This document shows, one piece after another, positions 11,242 to 41,122 of a stretch of DNA of 49,439 nt. The position numbers were made by a program, and so were the translations under genes. The stretch lies in the NCBI GenBank assembly GCA_017477245.1, contig JAFUWY010000026.1:1-49439 (forward strand), read 5' to 3'. Source of the DNA: Bacteroidales bacterium (GTDB lineage: Bacteria > Bacteroidota > Bacteroidia > Bacteroidales > UBA932). Each line of letters opens with the position of its first letter. Position 1 is the first letter of the stretch. The notes beneath the pieces were generated by a model, which worked only from the letters and a program-made list of their open reading frames with translations, was not told where the DNA came from and did not search any database.

Positions 11242-11978
<737 letters not shown>

Positions 11979-18170: not shown

Positions 18171-18191
18171 TCCGTCGGCTCCCTGACTTGC

Positions 18192-18569
18192 CTCCCCGAC
18201 GGGCCTCTCTGCCCCGGCCGGCTCTGTGACTTGCCTCCCCGACGCCCCTCTCTTCCCCGGTCGGCTCTGTGACTTGCCTCCCCGACGGCCCTCTCTTCCC
18301 CGGTCGGCTCCGTTGCTTACCTCCCCGACGGCCCTCTCTTCCCGGTCGGCTCCGTGGCTTATCTCCCCGACGCCCCTCTCTGCTCCGGCCGGCTCCGTGG
18401 CTTATCTCCCCGACGCCCCTCTCTACCCCGGCCGGCTCCGTTGCTTACCTCCCCGACGACCCTCTCTGCCCCGGCCTGCTCCGTGGCTTACCTCCCCGAC
18501 GGTCCTCTCTTCCCGGTCGGCTCCGTGGCCTATCTCCCCGACGACCCTCTCTGCCCGGCCGGCTCCGTG
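18192..18569. repeat. Tandem array, nine copies of a 42-43 bp unit
   Basis: The anchor CTCCCCGAC recurs at 18192, 18235, 18278, 18321, 18363, 18406, 18449, 18492 and 18534. Spacing is 43, 43, 43, 42, 43, 43, 43 and 42. Units differ by a few bases (CCCGACGG/CC/AC, GGTCGG or GGCCGG). Each unit can fold by pairing GTCGG with CCGAC of the next anchor. Because 43 is not a multiple of 3, the open frames across it are not real genes. The array starts right after rimM. Confidence 0.9.
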
Positions 18570-18580
18570 ACGCCCACACA

Positions 18581-18698
18581 GGTGGACCAGGTCCACTTTC
18601 AGATGCCGTACCAGGTCCACCGGATGTGCCCCAGAGGCGCTTCTGAGGCAGGGTTGGTGTACCAGGTCCGCCCCCTGAAATCCGACCTCGTCCACCTG
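18581..18698. repeat. 118-nt palindromic module B, copy 1
   Basis: The module starts with the palindrome TGGACCAGGTCCA. Its first 22 bases pair with its last 22 (GGTGGACC... with ...GTCCACC) with few mismatches, and an inner GTACCA can pair with TGGTGTAC. It differs from copy 2 (18833-18950) at only three positions and has exactly the same length as copy 3 (38979-39096), which is more diverged. Confidence 0.85.
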
Positions 18699-18717
18699 AC
18701 AACGAAAACTATTGTGA

Positions 18718-18819
18718 CCAAGGGCGCTGAGTCCCTTCTCCGCCCCTGGCAACTGCCGTTTCCTCCTGCCAGGGGCACTAAGACCCTTTCCTGCCCCCGG
18801 CAGCTACTGTCTTTTTCTG
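18718..18819. repeat. Two 50-51 bp module A hairpin units
   Basis: Two units of the form (C)CAGGGGC-N15-GCCCCTGG plus a T-rich linker. The first is imperfect (AAGGGCG...CGCCCCTGG). They are the same family as the eight-unit array at 38506-38912, and lie between the two 118-nt modules. Confidence 0.75.
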
Positions 18820-18832
18820 TCGACTCCCCGGC

Positions 18833-18950
18833 GGTGGACCAGGTCCACTTTCAGGTGCCGTACCAGGTCCACCGGATGTGCCCCAGAGGCGCTTCTGAGG
18901 CAGGGTTGGTGTACCAGGTCCACCCCCTGAAATCCGACCTCGTCCTCCTG
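18833..18950. repeat. 118-nt palindromic module B, copy 2
   Basis: Differs from copy 1 at three of 118 positions (A/G at the TTCAG-TGCC junction, G/A in the GGTCC-CCCC block, A/T near the end). The same long-range pairing of its two ends is possible. Confidence 0.85.
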
Positions 18951-18967
18951 ACAAGGAAGGAAACCTC

Positions 18968-19018
18968 CGCCAGGGGCACTGAGCCCCCTCTCTGCCCCTG
19001 GCAACTGCTTTCCCGACT
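18968..19018. repeat. Module A hairpin unit
   Basis: CCAGGGGC at 18970-18977 pairs with GCCCCTGG at 18994-19001, giving an 8-bp stem like the units elsewhere. It follows module B copy 2. Confidence 0.7.
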
Positions 19019-19066
19019 GCCAAAGGGTCTGAGGGCCGAAACAAAAAGATGACGGGACTACCGAGC

Positions 19067-19152
19067 GTTCATAACGTCCGTAAAACCGGGACGTTATGAA
19101 CGAAAACGGCCGAAAACGTGCATAACGTCCGGATAACAGGGACGTTGTGCAC
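19067..19152. repeat. Module C, double AACGTCC hairpin, copy 1
   Basis: Hairpin 1 pairs 19067-19079 with 19089-19101 over 13 perfect pairs. Hairpin 2 pairs 19118-19130 with 19140-19152 over 13 pairs with one T.G wobble. The linker CGAAAACGGCCGAAAAC is conserved in copy 2 (39264-39349). Confidence 0.85.
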
Positions 19153-19159
19153 GGTGTGA

Positions 19160-19347
19160 CAATTGTTGCCTATACTGAGTTTGGGGGCAGAGAGACTGTC
19201 GGAAGGAACCTGCCGGAGGAGGTTCGGGAAGGCTAAGGCTCTCCTCCAAGCCGAGCGTCAGGTAGCGTCAAGTCGAACGTCAGGCAGCATCAAGCAGGAA
19301 TTCCACTCTTTCCGGCTCGTCCCCCTCTTTTTTATATACTGCCTCCG
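19160..19347. other. Spacer in repeat cluster 1
   Basis: No gene is seen. Short blocks (CGGAAGGAACCTGCCGGAGG and GTCAGGTAGCGTCAAG) recur, slightly changed, at the same relative place in cluster 2 (39390-39535), so this spacer is part of the composite element. Confidence 0.6.
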
Positions 19348-19519
19348 TGCAAGCGCGGCCGCCGGGAGTTTTAGGAACTCCCGGCGAGCCACGCTAACCG
19401 CTGCGCCGGGTTATGCGCGGCGGTGGTGCACCATCAAAACCAGAACAATAAGGAATCAGAACCTGGTTCCTCTCCGCAGGGAACAGCCACGCCCGGTTAT
19501 GCGCGGCTGTGATTCGCCC
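19348..19519. repeat. Module D, set of three hairpins, copy 1
   Basis: Stem D1 pairs 19360-19370 with 19376-19386 (11 bp, around CCGGGAGTT). D2 pairs 19398-19406 with 19415-19423 around the 8-base loop CGGGTTAT. D3 pairs 19483-19492 with 19501-19510 around CCGGTTAT. D2 and D3 therefore share the loop ending GGTTAT followed by GCGCGG. The same three stems occur at 39624-39794, with changes that keep the pairing. Confidence 0.85.
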
Positions 19520-19572
19520 GCGCCGAACCATCACTGAAATGTTTAGCTTCTTTCTATCCCTCTCTATCAAGA

Positions 19573-19682
19573 GCGTGATGAGCAATCAGTTGACACTGAG
19601 CATTTTATGAAATCACTAGTTCCTTCCAAGGGCACCAGTGATCTTCAGTTAATATTCAGCATCAACAATTTGCTCATCACGC
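19573..19682. repeat. Module E, 110-bp segment flanked by 13-bp inverted repeats, copy 1
   Basis: GCGTGATGAGCAA at 19573-19585 is the exact reverse complement of 19670-19682. The centre (about 19612-19642) holds an imperfect hairpin ATCACT...AGTGAT. Similarity between the arms continues inward beyond the 13 bp. It ends 71 bases before the start of the glycosyltransferase at 19754. Confidence 0.85.
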
Positions 19683-19741
19683 CTATGTAGAGGGAGTGCG
19701 GCAGGCCGTCGGTTTTATACCCAAGCACGCGTAAAAAATAG

Positions 19742-19749
19742 TATATTTG
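19742..19749 (+). promoter_or_regulatory. -7 element of the glycosyltransferase pair
   Basis: TATATTTG ends 4 bases before the ATG at 19754, so the mRNA is probably leaderless. No convincing -33 element lies at the right distance. Confidence 0.5.
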
Positions 19750-19753
19750 CGGT

Positions 19754-38065: not shown

Positions 38066-38088
38066 CCTTATCTATAAATAAGTTACAT

Positions 38089-38122
38089 AAACCAACCGTG
38101 TCGATTTCGATACGGTTGGTTT
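38089..38122. terminator. Terminator hairpin after rsmE
   Basis: A 15-bp stem (38089-38103 with 38108-38122, one G.T wobble) around ATTT-type loop. Flanking A and T make it usable in both directions. Confidence 0.75.
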
Positions 38123-38208
38123 GTATAACTTCCTGCCAATCAGGTAATTCCTAAAAACAGCCCTTTGCCTGCTTGCTGCCAATCCACCGGCAGCACCATC
38201 GCCCAGGT

Positions 38209-38480
38209 GGGAAACAACCACACCCCACAGAAGTACTCTATGGCACTTCCGTACTTCCCTCTACCCGAAATCCGGGCCATGGGAAACACCCACTCCCAGC
38301 AGAAGACACCAGTGTCATACCCGAGTTCCCCTCTGGTCGAAATTAGCGCCGTGGGAAACACCTACTCCCAGCAGAAGCCACCAGAGCGATGTCTTTGTTT
38401 CCCATAGGCCGAAATCAGTGTCGTGGGAAACACCCGCCCCCAGCAGAAGTCGCCAGGGCCACGTCTCTTGTTTCCCACAG
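38209..38480. repeat. Tandem array, four copies of a 72-bp unit
   Basis: GGGAAAC recurs at 38209, 38281, 38353 and 38425, spacing exactly 72. Each unit carries CCCAGCAGAAG and inverted TTTCCCA/TGGGAAA elements able to pair. 72 is a multiple of 3, so open frames run through it on both strands, but without a start, signal or family likeness. Confidence 0.85.
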
Positions 38481-38505
38481 CCTCGAACAATCGAACATCC
38501 GGCGC

Positions 38506-38912
38506 TGCCAGGGGCGTCAGGACCCTTCTCTGCCCCTGGTAACGACTTTTCCATGCTGCAAGGGGCGCCAGGACCCTTCTCCGCCCCTGGTAACGTCTTT
38601 TCCGTGTTGCCAGGGGCGCCGGGACCCTTCTCAGCCCCTGGTAACGACTTTTCCATGCAGCGAGGGGCCCCAGGACCCTTTTCTGCCCTGGCAACTGTTT
38701 TTCTTTGTTGCCAGGGGCGCCAGGGCCCTTCTCAGCCCCTGGTAACGACTTTTCCATGCAGCCAGGGGCGCCAGGACCCTTTTCTGCCCCTGGCAACTGG
38801 TTTTCTTTGATGCGAGGGGCGCCGGGACCCTTCTCAGCCCCTGGTAACGTCTTTTCCGTGTTGCCAGGGGCGCTGGGGACTCTCACTGCCCCTGGTGGCC
38901 ACTTTTCTTTTT
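38506..38912. repeat. Tandem array of module A, eight copies of a 51-bp hairpin unit
   Basis: Units start at 38506, 38557, 38608, 38659, 38709, 38760, 38811 and 38862. Each has CCAGGGGC (or close) and GCCCCTGG about 15 bases later, forming an 8-bp stem, then a linker TAACGACTTTTCCATG or CAACTG-TTTTCTTTG. Two linker types alternate irregularly. The same unit is found as single or paired copies in cluster 1. Confidence 0.9.
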
Positions 38913-38978
38913 CCCGAAGCCGCCGTGAAGGGAAAGTCGGGAGGGAAAACCGGGTGTGAAAGTCAAGAGGGAAAGCCG

Positions 38979-39096
38979 GGTGGACCAGGTCCACTTTGAA
39001 GGCCTGTACCAGGTCCACCACCCCTGCCTCAAAAGCCCTTCAGAGCCACACTTGGTGTACCTGGTCCACCCCCAGAAAGAGGACCTGGTCCACCAG
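38979..39096. repeat. 118-nt palindromic module B, copy 3
   Basis: Same length as copies 1 and 2. The first bases GGTGGACCAGGTCCACTTT pair with the last (AAAGAGGACCTGGTCCACC). The interior is strongly changed from copies 1 and 2 while both ends and the GTACCAGGTCCACC elements are kept, so structure outlives sequence. Confidence 0.85.
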
Positions 39097-39120
39097 AGTG
39101 TGATGACAATCGCTGTCGGA

Positions 39121-39205
39121 GATGCCAGGATCCTTCTCTGCTCCCGGTAACGTCTTTTCCGTGCTGCCAGGGCCGTTAGGACTTTTCTGTGCCCCTGGTA
39201 GCCGG
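39121..39205. repeat. Two degenerate module A units
   Basis: GCCAGGATCC...GCTCCCGGTAACGTC and GCCAGGGCCGTTAGG...GCCCCTGGTAGCC, worn forms of the 51-bp unit, following module B as in cluster 1. Confidence 0.6.
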
Positions 39206-39263
39206 ACTCTCCAACCGCTAAAGTACTGGGGACCGAAAATGAAACCTGAGCGGACTGATGAGC

Positions 39264-39349
39264 GTGCACAACGTCCGAAAAACAGGGACGTTATGAACGA
39301 AAACGGCCAAAAACGTGCATAGCGTCCGGAGGATCGGGACGTTGTGCAC
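39264..39349. repeat. Module C, double AACGTCC hairpin, copy 2
   Basis: Same length (86 bp) as copy 1. The second hairpin (GTGCATAGCGTCC with GGACGTTGTGCAC) keeps 13 pairs using two wobble pairs. The left arm of hairpin 1 (GTGCACAACGTCC) is the exact complement of the right arm of hairpin 2 (39337-39349), so an alternative long fold is possible. Confidence 0.85.
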
Positions 39350-39445
39350 GGTACGACAACGACTCCGTCTGCTGAGTTCATTGACAGAGGCTATCGGAAA
39401 GTACCTGCCGGAGGATAGGATAGATTAGGTCAGGATAGGTCAAGT

Positions 39446-39470
39446 CGAGTCGAGTCGAGTCGAGTCGAGT
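39446..39470. repeat. Five-copy CGAGT microsatellite
   Basis: CGAGT repeated five times in tandem with perfect copies, in the spacer between modules C and D of cluster 2. Perfect copies suggest recent slippage. Confidence 0.85.
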
Positions 39471-39536
39471 CAGGATCAGATATGATCCTCATCCAGGCCG
39501 ACGGTCAGGTGGCGTCAAGCCGGATTTCCGCCTTAT

Positions 39537-39596
39537 CCGGCTCGACCTGTCATTATTTGGGGAGATCGAGCCGGATTCAGGCCTTTTCCGGCTCGA
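39537..39596. repeat. CCGGCTCGA / TCGAGCCGG inverted set
   Basis: CCGGCTCGA at 39537-39545, its reverse complement at 39566-39574 and CCGGCTCGA again at 39588-39596. The middle arm can pair with either neighbour, a switch-like arrangement. A single CCGGCTCG is at the same relative place in cluster 1 (near 19313). Confidence 0.7.
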
Positions 39597-39623
39597 CCTC
39601 TTCGCCTGGTAGCCTGCCGCCGG

Positions 39624-39794
39624 GCAAGCGCGGCCGCCGGGAGTTCCCAAAACTCCCGGCGAGCCACGCTAACCACCGCGTTTGGTTATGCGCGGCGGTG
39701 GTGCACCATCGAAACCCATCATCTTCGGAGTAAATACCTGACTCCTCCCCGCAGGGAACAGCCGCGCCGCGTATTGCGCGGCTGTGATTCGCCC
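39624..39794. repeat. Module D, set of three hairpins, copy 2
   Basis: D1 pairs 39635-39645 with 39651-39661. D2 is CCACCGC with GCGGTGG around the GGTTAT loop. D3 pairs ACAGCCGCGC (39758-39767) with GCGCGGCTGT (39776-39785), a perfect 10-bp stem around CGCGTATT. Where copy 1 has a weaker base in the D3 stem this copy has the Watson-Crick partner. Confidence 0.85.
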
Positions 39795-39836
39795 ACTGGC
39801 ATCCCATTTCAAATCTGATCTGCTTCCTTCCCAAAA

Positions 39837-39945
39837 GCGTGATGAGGAACTATCTGATTATCAATAAAAACGAAAATCTCTAGTCCCTCCGGGAGGTACT
39901 AGAGATTTCATAAAACATTTAATATCAACTGTTTGCTCATCACGC
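39837..39945. repeat. Module E, inverted-repeat segment, copy 2, arms exchanged
   Basis: GCGTGATGAG at 39837 and its complement ending at 39945 border a 109-bp segment with a long central hairpin (AAATCTCTAGT at 39874-39884 with ACTAGAGATTT at 39898-39908). The right arm, reverse-complemented, aligns with the LEFT arm of copy 1 over about 40 bases (CAGTTGA and TTTTATGAAATC blocks), so the segment is flipped relative to module D. Confidence 0.8.
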
Positions 39946-40042
39946 CCACGAAGGAGTAAGATGTCAGGGGGCGGGGTATGGTTAGATGTATGGTTGGGTG
40001 CATGGTTGAATGAGTATTTGGTCTATGAGCTACGATAAGAGG

Positions 40043-40163
40043 GCGATTCACCGCCGCGCATAACCAGGCGCGGCGGCTCACTGCGGGTCCTGTTTCTGAG
40101 CCGGGAGACAAGAGGTTGGTCGAAGTTGGGGCACCGCCGCCGCTCAATACGCAGAGCGGCGGC
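40043..40163. repeat. Module D-like hairpin pair in reverse orientation
   Basis: CCGCCGCGC (40051-40059) pairs with GCGCGGCGG (40068-40076) around the 8-base loop ATAACCAG, and GCCGCCGCTC (40136-40145) with GAGCGGCGGC (40154-40163) around AATACGCA. The loops are reverse complements of the GGTTAT and GTATT loops of modules D. This is a third, inverted partial copy facing copy 2. Confidence 0.75.
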
Positions 40164-40174
40164 TGCCGGAGGAT

Positions 40175-40201
40175 CCGGACGAGCTTTTGGGGCTCGTCCG
40201 G
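40175..40201. repeat. CCGGACGAGC hairpin
   Basis: CCGGACGAGC at 40175-40184 pairs with GCTCGTCCGG at 40192-40201 over 10 bp with loop TTTTGGG. It could end leftward transcription from the tsaC side. Confidence 0.6.
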
Positions 40202-40405
40202 ACCTCCGTCTGCCCGGAACCATGACGGAGGAGATCCGGAACCATGAAGGAGGAGGTTCGGAACCGTGACGGGAGGAAAACCTCGTAACGGTCCGGGACC
40301 ATGACGGGCGGAGGCGGTGTTGACGGATAGGTTTTCTTCATGAGTCCTGAAAGCGGCGAACTTCAGCGGCTCAGCGGCTCAGGGGGCTCAGGGGGCTTAG
40401 GGGCC
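40202..40405. repeat. Short degenerate repeats before the tsaC stop
   Basis: About four copies of CCGGAACCATGACGGAGG-like 22-mers (40214-40315), then 9-10 base repeats of the type CAGCGGCTCAGGGGGCT (40362-40415) that run into the end of the tsaC-like gene. No gene is seen. Confidence 0.65.
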
Positions 40406-41122
40406 TCAGGGCCTCAGGATCTCCACTTCACCGCCCAGGCCGAGTTTGATGATCTGCGAGGAGCGGCCCGTGGCGCCGGCGCCGAAGGATTTCGGCACGA
40501 CGTAGTCCACGGCCGACTTGATCTCTTCGGAGATCTCGTTGAAGTCCTGCGGGGTGGGTTCTCCGGAGATGTTGGCCGAGGTGCTGACGAGCGGCCGGCG
40601 CAGGCGGCGCACCAGCTCGCGGCAGAAGGCGCCGGCGGTCAGGTTGCCTTGCGGGGCTTGTCTCGGGGCGGGGGATTCGCCGGTCGGGCCGGCGAATGAC
40701 GAACGAGAGTCAGCGGATGAGGTACGGGATCCGGCAGGGCGGGAGCCGGCGGCGGGTGCAGGTGCGTCCGCGTCGGGGACGACGGGGATGCGGATCCCGA
40801 CGGAGCCGTCGGCAGCGACGGCGTTGGGCGCCAGGTACTGCGCGCCCGGGTAGATGAGGGTCATCGGGGCGTCGTTGACCTCCACGAGGTCGATGGCGAT
40901 CGAGGGGATCTGCCGGATGTATTTCGCGACCATGTCGAGGTCGCAGGCCAGCAGCACGAGCGACTTGGCCTCGCTGCGGCGCTTGATTTCGAACACGCGG
41001 GCGACGGCCTTCTCGTTGGTGGCGTCGCAGCCGATGCCCCACACGGTGTCGGTGGGATAGAGGATCACGCCGCCTTCGCGCAAGATGCGCACGGCTTCCT
41101 GGATAATCGGAGTACTGTCCAT
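40406..41122 (-). CDS. Threonylcarbamoyl-AMP synthase (TsaC/Sua5/YrdC family) with in-frame insert
   Basis: 238 residues. The YrdC core is clear: GGVILYPTDTVWGIGCDA at 18-35, KRRSEAKSL at 48-55, VGIRIP at 108-113 and RPLVSTSANISGE at 176-188. It makes the threonylcarbamoyl-AMP used for t6A37 in tRNA. Between VGIRIP and FCREL, where ordinary members have a few residues, about 48 residues (118-165) of low-complexity Ala/Pro/Ser/Gly sequence are inserted. The DNA of the insert has a perfect palindrome (40675-40697), so it looks like an inserted repeat that kept the frame. It is 3 bases after the rhomboid gene. Enzyme function is likely but untested with the insert. Confidence 0.88.
   Translation of the reverse strand: MDSTPIIQEAVRILREGGVILYPTDTVWGIGCDATNEKAVARVFEIKRRSEAKSLVLLACDLDMVAKYIRQIPSIAIDLVEVNDAPMTLIYPGAQYLAPNAVAADGSVGIRIPVVPDADAPAPAAGSRPAGSRTSSADSRSSFAGPTGESPAPRQAPQGNLTAGAFCRELVRRLRRPLVSTSANISGEPTPQDFNEISEEIKSAVDYVVPKSFGAGATGRSSQIIKLGLGGEVEILRP
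40675..40697. repeat. Palindromic element inside the tsaC-like gene
   Basis: ATTCGCCGG at 40675-40683 pairs perfectly with CCGGCGAAT at 40689-40697 around TCGGG. It lies within the extra 144-bp stretch 40628-40771 that has no counterpart in ordinary YrdC proteins. Confidence 0.75.

Follow-up and report, generated by a model that had tools for sequence, protein, structure and literature searches.

Two Noncoding Clusters of Repeat Modules on One Contig

The DNA analyzed here, which we call the window, is the 49,439-nucleotide (nt) contig JAFUWY010000026.1, one of the 48 contigs of a 2,378,326-bp draft genome of a Bacteroidales bacterium (GCA_017477245.1). It contains two noncoding clusters of repeat modules, delimited by reading both regions and by profile matches to 18171–19753 (copy 1) and 38066–40405 (copy 2), which share one order in one orientation: an array of A units, module C, a spacer, module D, and module E, with module B ahead of C. 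The D modules of the two copies are 20,275 nt apart. Copy 2 holds all six of the families that we designate A, B, C, D, E, and F72, and copy 1 holds five of them together with a seventh repeat type, H43. By Pfam matches, the neighbors of copy 1 encode ribosomal protein S16, RimM, and a family-2 glycosyltransferase (GT1), and those of copy 2 an RNA methyltransferase (RsmE-like), Sua5/YrdC, and a rhomboid protein; the name radA for a further gene near copy 2 was given by eye, its Pfam matches being ATPase domains. Throughout, G000 denotes the source genome, C numbers after G000 its contigs, L numbers the fetched stretches of DNA, and win1 and win2 the two window copies.

Copy 1 opens with H43, nine tandem 43-bp GC-rich units (18192–18571, + strand) recovered by Tandem Repeats Finder and by profile; unless stated otherwise, the remaining modules were located by profile. 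A first B, a large palindromic repeat with TGGACCWGGTCCA-like pieces (18582–18696, − strand), is followed by two A hairpin units (CCAGGGGC..GCCCCTGG; 18718–18808, + strand), a second B in the orientation opposite to the first (18833–18945, + strand), a further A unit (18970–19011, + strand), and a module C of two 14-bp hairpins (19066–19153, no strand assigned) that resembles a doublet of repetitive extragenic palindromic sequences (a REP doublet, or REPIN). The C–D spacer (19154–19348, + strand) was recognized by alignment as homologous in other clusters, the alignment of the C20 cluster with win1 (353 nt at 81.6% identity) extending into it, and leads to a D module assigned to subtype D1 (19349–19519, + strand) and a palindromic E with ends GCGTGATGAG..CTCATCACGC (19572–19682, no strand assigned). 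Directly 5′ of the downstream glycosyltransferase gene lies a TATATTTGCGGT block (19742–19753, + strand), which we take to be promoter-like.

Copy 2 begins with four F72 units, an inverted pair and two further units (GTGGGAAACA..TGTTTCCCAC; 38207–38478, + strand), followed by an array of eight 51-bp A hairpin units found by tandem-repeat search and profile (38508–38906, + strand), one B (38980–39094, − strand), one C (39263–39350, no strand assigned), a C–D spacer (39351–39623, + strand) of which 48 nt near the right end are 92% identical to the C16 cluster (L040), a D1 (39624–39794, + strand), and an E (39836–39945, no strand assigned). Beyond E stands a D2, inverted relative to D1 (40041–40196, − strand) and of the subtype found at one flank of the RAYT-D gene described below, and short tandem repeats (40197–40405, + strand), inside DNA that two relatives with equal gene order lack, reach the yrdC/sua5 stop codon. 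Short tandem repeats in and beside this copy comprise GTCGA (39439–39471), a 22-nt CCGGAACCATGACGGAGGAGAT (40214–40277), and GGCTCAGGG (40363–40418). At the left edge, right after rsmE, a hairpin with 25-nt arms (38080–38131) may be a terminator or another palindromic element. Palindromic pieces ATCGAGCCGGAT / ATCCGGCTCGAC recur in the C–D spacer (window 39535–39600; L037 3760–3900) and perhaps represent a further small repeat family.

A first-pass annotation of this contig had described one composite element present twice with the same module order. Both copies are real and noncoding and have the common order given above, and the annotation read their shared orientation and the distance of about 20.3 kb between D modules correctly; the details of the opening arrays, B, A, and the end differ. 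The equivalent hairpin array with which both copies were said to open proves to be two different families, with H43 only in copy 1 and F72 in copy 2. No A units were detected ahead of the first of the two B modules in copy 1, and copy 2, which had been ended at 39945, runs on with the inverted D2. The judgment that no plausible protein is encoded was sound: open reading frames (ORFs) inside the arrays are, by eye, translations of the repeats, the window clusters carry no transposase gene, and no gene was called inside them apart from a low-scoring call of 53 amino acids (aa) over E of copy 1.

Modules Recur in Clusters of Near-Fixed Order

Profiles for the seven repeat types were built from the window copies and iterated over the window and 34 fetched stretches, which had been picked through matches of two DNA queries; the copy numbers for the genome are lower bounds. 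The scan gave 41 clusters, of which 24 contain at least two module types, 13 at least three, and 8 at least four, with at least 127 copies of A, 26 of D, 20 each of E and B, 15 each of F72 and C, and 9 of H43. Overlap with genes called by a codon-score method is absent in 39 of the 41 clusters, the two overlaps being the 53-aa call over E and 20 nt of a gene call at L063. A chance origin of the repeats is excluded by copy number and by blastn E-values, which go down to 1e-64; a phage origin was also considered, and the phage collection gave no match.

In clusters oriented by their A units, A stands before D in 10 of 10 cases and before C in 7 of 7, and C stands before D in 4 of 4. The exceptions concern E and F72: A precedes E in 8 of 10, F72 precedes A in 5 of 6, and F72 precedes E in 2 of 4. 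Relative to A, the strand of C is constant (7/7) and that of B nearly so (15/16). The first-pass annotation had named independent occurrence of the modules in random order as grounds for abandoning a composite element, and the outcome is divided: 7 of the 15 C copies lie outside multitype clusters, yet the order inside clusters is nonrandom.

It had also held that the clusters follow RNA or ribosome operons. This applies to the window, where rimM and rsmE are confirmed by Pfam, but is ruled out as a general association by the flanking genes at nine other clusters. Of these ten genes, a single one has a clear link to tRNA (tRNA m1G methyltransferase) and another a possible link (a cytidine/adenosine-type deaminase); the remaining eight encode a P-type ATPase, a short-chain dehydrogenase/reductase, a nitroreductase, an ABC ATPase, two glycosyl hydrolases, an RmlD-like protein, and PriA. 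A composite cluster at L048 2246–2896 follows a tRNA m1G methyltransferase gene, and neighbors with a role in RNA modification are too few for a comparison with expectation.

Fourteen contig ends of the draft are no more than 700 nt away from a module (contigs C4, C8, C10, C12, C14, C17, C18, C20, C28, C31, C37, and C47 of G000), so the mosaics may break the assembly, and real copy numbers may be higher. That the clusters are themselves an assembly artifact of a metagenome bin, with repeats collapsed or misjoined, is hardly credible. The contig ends speak for such an explanation, and exact unit numbers may be wrong, but both window clusters lie inside one contig with ordinary genes on either side, their flanks are distinct, clusters are 66–94% identical rather than identical, and relatives of B, C, D, and E recur in other genomes.

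RAYT-Like Transposase Genes Adjoin the Modules

A search with the Pfam model Y1_Tnp identified four genes in the source genome, and queries with the proteins of REP-associated tyrosine transposases (RAYTs) raise the total to at least 12. Five RAYT-like genes adjoin composite modules. RAYT-C is a 293-aa ORF at 1195–2076 of L041 (G000:C16) with C on both sides (976–1063 and 2086–2173); RAYT-D, an open frame at 2912–3814 of L035 (G000:C28), lies between a D1 and an inverted D2; RAYT-A, an open frame at 2532–3527 of L054 (G000:C7), lies between A arrays; RAYT-F, at 11902–12789 of L267 (G000:C15), lies between F72 copies; and RAYT-E, a 305-aa ORF at 2631–3548 of L158 (G000:C43), has an E at 2465–2574. 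For B, 16 loci of related species were matched, two of which hold a RAYT gene with B on both sides (L246 of G184 and L254 of G396).

Profile comparison aligns the six RAYT proteins over 246–288 aa, with E-values of 2e-71 for C–D, 5e-44 for C–A, 8e-26 for C–B, 1e-22 for C–F, and 8e-12 for C–E, and weak values for E–B (1e-5) and E–F (6e-4); the alignment used for B has two rows and that for F one. The HxH motifs, identified by eye, read NHVH in C and D, THLH in E, SHLH in A, NHCH in B, and SHPH in F. The C and E genes score above the Y1_Tnp cut-off in one search and just below it in another, the matches of C, D, and E to the REP-transposase model stay below its cut-off, and a PDB sequence search with RAYT-C gave no match. 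The last ~30 residues of the six proteins are similar and look by eye like a helix–turn–helix (e.g., NQLARVTGLSYDTAARLL), possibly a DNA-binding domain added in long RAYTs. Given that none of the RAYT paralogs listed for the source genome exceeds 68% identity to a query and that no transposase gene lies in the window clusters, the signature of an IS200/IS605 element with tnpA in near-identical copies is absent.

Repeats also surround further members of the family. A diverged C-like repeat adjoins the RAYT-C paralog at C26 (68% identical), and other RAYT-like genes (on C22 and C27, and a second gene on C15) are bracketed by palindromes of their own that are, by eye, unlike the cluster modules (L156 1984–2037 and 3064–3155; L157 2279–2339 and 3431–3491; L267 1679–1823 and 2911–3055). 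Beside the E module at the RAYT-E gene, L158 2264–2435 holds two tandem 86-bp copies at 95% identity.

Pairing of Repeat and Transposase across Species

Specificity was compared for four RAYT groups (A, C, D, and E), each over 151 genomes; every group is represented by 30 loci, of which 29 are foreign. Matches to the C profile occur at 10 of 29 RAYT-C loci, six of which have them on both sides (L160, L162, L166, L168, L171, and L180), versus 0 of 87 others, and matches to the E profile at 4 of 29 RAYT-E loci versus 0 of 87 others. Two short motifs were also counted: the C core ACGTCC occurs on both sides at 8 of 29 C-group loci versus 2 of 87 others, and TGATWATCA at 6 of 29 E-group loci versus 1 of 87, although the latter is on both sides at 0 of 29 and is suggestive only. 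These profile matches, with the B loci above, show a pairing of repeat and putative transposase across species for C and E and, at two of the 16 loci with B, for B; for A and D, among the loci compared, it is seen in the source genome only, and for F72 it is seen in the source genome. Relatives of these proteins are common: at an E-value of 1e-20, and counting the source genome among the 151, the C query finds 111 genomes, D 107, A 105, and E 88, the queries overlapping in what they find.

D and E-like repeats are neighbors in two other species (L223 2042–3562 of G065, by a RAYT-E relative, and L268 4675–5449 of G225). A-like units with 51-nt spacing occur in G258 (L241), a weak match.

Palindrome Structure and Relation to REP Sequences

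The structure of module C was tested on 26 copies from the source and other genomes. In its predicted hairpins 87.4% of cells are paired, versus 75.4% after shuffling and 24–41% with slid partners; double-change cells number 83 versus 28.6 after shuffling, and change on both sides occurs in 18 of 28 pairs. Relatedness can inflate the shuffled control, and the structure, having been derived here from a single one of the sequences, is favored over its slid versions. With these caveats, the C stems as predicted show compensatory change. The claim of the first-pass annotation that stems are better kept than sequence thus holds for C across species and less so for B, in which 3 of 19 consensus pairs have double changes. 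A count of G–U versus A–C as a sign of RNA rather than DNA constraint was set aside because the folding step favors G–U.

Compensatory change in conserved stems, together with the position of the clusters between genes, would suit a long structured noncoding RNA or riboregulator transcribed from each gap. We nevertheless regard this as very improbable. Among the covarying C copies are many, from other species, that do no more than stand beside a transposase gene; the modules differ in number between clusters and can be missing or solitary; and Rfam over the window gave three tRNAs only and no gathering score for the clusters. A structured RNA is therefore unsupported here.

The modules are instead close to REP sequences in several ways. 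They are dispersed, mainly extragenic palindromic repeats, as the 41 clusters attest; in the source genome A, C, D, and F72 each have copies on both sides of a Y1 (RAYT) gene and E a copy on one side, B being placed in this way in G184 and G396 only; and inverted arrangements of the kind seen in bacterial interspersed mosaic elements (BIMEs) occur in the F72 pairs, in D1/D2, and in the inverted arms of B, C, and E. The A units are arranged head to tail and do not alternate. The GT[AG]G foot is present in B (32/40) and F72 (12/30). Given that such feet are missing in A, C, D, and E, we describe the modules as REP-like rather than as canonical REPs.

Block Homology and a Proposed D1-E-D2 Unit

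Oriented clusters align across module borders and spacers at 66–94% identity: C28 with C41 over 1,063 nt (82%), C20 with win2 over 924 nt (80%), C31 with C41 over 587 nt (94%), C20 with C28 over 520 nt (94%), and C28 with win2 over 442 nt (94%). The D copies fall into subtypes D1, D2, and D3, of which D1 and D2 bracket the RAYT-D gene and, in clusters, E. To the left of D1, a gapped comparison of 12 copies finds unrelated DNA in 55 of 66 pairs, with up to 94% identity inside, and D2 plus a tail of ~220 nt is common to the clusters and the RAYT-D locus (383 nt at 80.7%). These comparisons suggest that D1-[gene or E]-D2-tail is a unit, sometimes inside a larger copied block, and D1-E-D2-tail looks like a nonautonomous counterpart of the RAYT-D locus (D1-gene-D2-tail) with E in place of the gene. 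An origin of D1-E-D2 by plain internal deletion of the RAYT-D gene was rejected: the gene-adjacent DNA (207 and 118 nt) is by eye unlike the D1–E spacers, so that only D1 and D2 plus tail are in common with the RAYT-D locus.

The same REP-like parts could have been spread as blocks by homologous recombination, gene conversion, or segmental duplication between repeats and not by RAYT proteins, an explanation that we consider a serious one, if somewhat short of even probability. Blocks that cross module borders at identities from 66% to 94% and A arrays that differ in unit number speak for recombination, as do 11 of the 66 D1 pairs, which share DNA outside D1 above the shuffled 99th percentile (mainly those that share the C–D spacer, together with L031 and L038) and show that some blocks exceed D1-E-D2. 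What recombination explains less readily is that D1 meets unrelated DNA in the other 55 pairs, and does so even where the inside is 87–94% identical over 440–590 nt (C31/C41, C20/C28, C28/win2, and C28/C31). Outside the A arrays, moreover, 80 of 106 block ends fall within 20 nt of a module edge versus 41% at random, a count that is partly circular, the modules having been defined by conservation, and whose ends are nonindependent. A less likely but reasonable possibility is that D1-E-D2-tail, and perhaps larger blocks, were moved whole by RAYT-D using D1 and D2 as left and right ends, with the REPINs of other families inside.

Both Clusters Are Insertions Relative to Related Genomes

The rimM locus was compared with rumen and gut Bacteroidales bins, Candidatus Cryptobacteroides being more distant. 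In 11 of the 17 closest relatives (L065–L081) rimM is followed directly by a GT1 relative, with a gap of 22–254 nt between tblastn ends, versus 1,583 nt in the source genome; the other six loci have different neighbors. A block like TATATTTGCGGT stays beside GT1 in relatives without the insertion. Among 29 foreign rsmE loci, two keep the order radA-rsmE-yrdC-rhomboid (L333 and L340) with overlapping rsmE and yrdC ends, where the source genome has 2,340 nt. The seven module profiles gave no match at 109 foreign rimM or rsmE loci (80 and 29, respectively). From the short or overlapping gaps in relatives and the lack of modules at these loci, judged by sequence comparison, both window clusters are insertions gained in this lineage. 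In species RGIG3682, the gap between rimM and the glycosyltransferase gene holds a palindrome of its own (L073 4425–4600; TTGATTATCAA..CACCTTCGG..CCGAAGGT..TTGATAATCAA). By eye it is similar to the palindrome at the C27 RAYT, and it may be another REPIN that came to occupy this gap.

Parts of the clusters are found more widely. A 1,121-nt composite query has some match in 34 of 400 genomes of the genus including the source, with two candidates scored per genome, mostly to B or C; a first search with D over 61 genomes matched the source genome only; and in nine chosen relatives a D1-E query gave matches in three, all partial, with the composite itself not seen. Absence from these nine relatives and from the 109 loci indicates that the composite is not conserved, which counts against a chromosomal element made of REP-like parts and kept by selection in the service of the host, such as a terminator array or a site for supercoiling or nucleoid proteins. 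The intergenic placement of the clusters would suit such a role, and binding of gyrase and IHF has been published for BIMEs, as has an effect of REPs on termination (PMC2817692); we consider it improbable all the same. The elements are probably selfish, and a benefit to the host, if any, secondary.

Interpretation as Mosaics of Several REP-Like Families

Taken together, these observations lead us to conclude, with a high degree of confidence, that the clusters are mosaics of REP/REPIN-like elements of six RAYT-like HUH Y1 lineages (A, B, C, D, E, and F72) inserted between genes, and they seem to be hybrid BIMEs on an unusual scale, with 24 multimodule examples in a draft of 2.38 Mb. We envisage that each transposase would cut single-stranded DNA at its own hairpins, so that its palindromes spread; that several families would have landed in the same intergenic gaps; and that ready-made blocks (B-A-array, A-C-spacer, and D1-E-D2-tail) would then have been copied to new gaps, which we propose as the cause of the near-fixed order. 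TnpA_REP proteins of other systems can both cleave REP sequences and join them again, and have been proposed as the agents of their spread (PMC6006769, PMC2817692). Among the three options left by the first-pass annotation, the nested nonautonomous mobile element is the one borne out, with six RAYT-like lineages as candidate agents, whereas a structured RNA and a domain organizer have no positive evidence in their favor.

Several points weigh against this interpretation. The copying of blocks could be recombination, as discussed above, and the D1 pairs that share outside DNA belong here also. The A profile matches none of the 29 foreign RAYT-A loci, and the D profile none of the 29 foreign RAYT-D loci, which instead matches at a single RAYT-A-group locus and at a single RAYT-E-group locus (L193 of G065, at which D adjoins an E-like element by a RAYT-E relative); a weak D copy is also present at the RAYT-A locus of the source genome. 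RAYT-E has its repeat on one side only, and its similarity to RAYT-F is weak (probability 28.5%). RAYT-B was not recognized in the source genome, where the query finds other RAYTs at 21–29% identity, and neither Pfam nor NCBIfam yields a match of its own for RAYT-A, RAYT-F, or one of the RAYT-B proteins. The GT[AG]G foot is rare in C (1/30), D (3/50), E (4/40), and A (21/254 feet), in each case below the shuffled expectation. Finally, the H43 profile matches nowhere outside the window among all stretches scanned, and no partner transposase for H43 was found.

Among known systems, REP/REPIN systems with RAYTs likewise consist of intergenic palindromes, with inverted doublets by a Y1 HUH gene, a gene of its own for each family, and compensatory stems (PMC2817692, PMC3116915, PMC6006769), and REPIN clusters beside RAYTs have been published. 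The modules described here are larger (about 43–171 nt), A, C, D, and E lack the GTRG foot, and families number 15–26 copies, or 127 for A, as lower bounds, whereas REP/REPIN families usually exceed 100 per genome. The proteins, of ~285–315 aa, are also longer than those of the Bacteroidetes subclass 2.6, with a median of 179 aa; the structures beside the TnpA_REP genes of that subclass have been called atypical (PMC6006769). Hybrid BIMEs likewise cluster REPs of more than one RAYT, as in Stenotrophomonas, where BIMEs contain REPs "from two different RAYTs" (PMC2817692); the clusters described here differ in combining five or six families in near-fixed order with cross-family copying of blocks over several hundred to 1,063 nt. 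Arrangements like that of the REPtron are seen for RAYT-D, which D1 and D2 enclose, for RAYT-C among copies of C, and for RAYT-A among A arrays; D1-E-D2 departs from it in having equal ends and another interior at several sites.

Intergenic mosaics occur in Neisseria and in the pneumococcus also, and we know of no set of Y1 transposases for all of their parts. In Neisseria they combine different small repeat families (PMC3733652), and in the pneumococcus BOX and RUP are small repeat families of intergenic mosaics (PMC3049150). In the open-licence PMC literature, to the extent that its text was accessible, we found described neither a fixed-order multi-RAYT mosaic nor Bacteroidales REPs of such a kind. 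The remark in the first-pass annotation that no family fits the whole is accordingly right as to scale and fixed multifamily order, but REP, REPIN, and BIME cover the parts, and hybrid BIMEs have been published. New here are the near-fixed module order, the copying of blocks across module borders, and the D1-E-D2 unit with ends that match the RAYT-D locus.

The mosaics link a multipart intergenic element to candidate enzymes from six lineages together, and do so in an uncultured group of the gut and rumen in which RAYT relatives are common, and in practical terms they sit at contig ends of the draft. They suggest that large cognate repeats can accompany long Y1 proteins, though a 2018 survey lists its two long subclasses, 2.1 and 2.3, without REPs (PMC6006769). 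They also make testable the question of whether REP transposases move small palindromes only or whole composite cassettes. If D1-E-D2 was indeed moved whole by RAYT-D, cassettes bounded by REPs would transpose whole, with five or six RAYT systems sharing a single growing vehicle, and the outcome would be a multifamily mosaic of near-fixed order.

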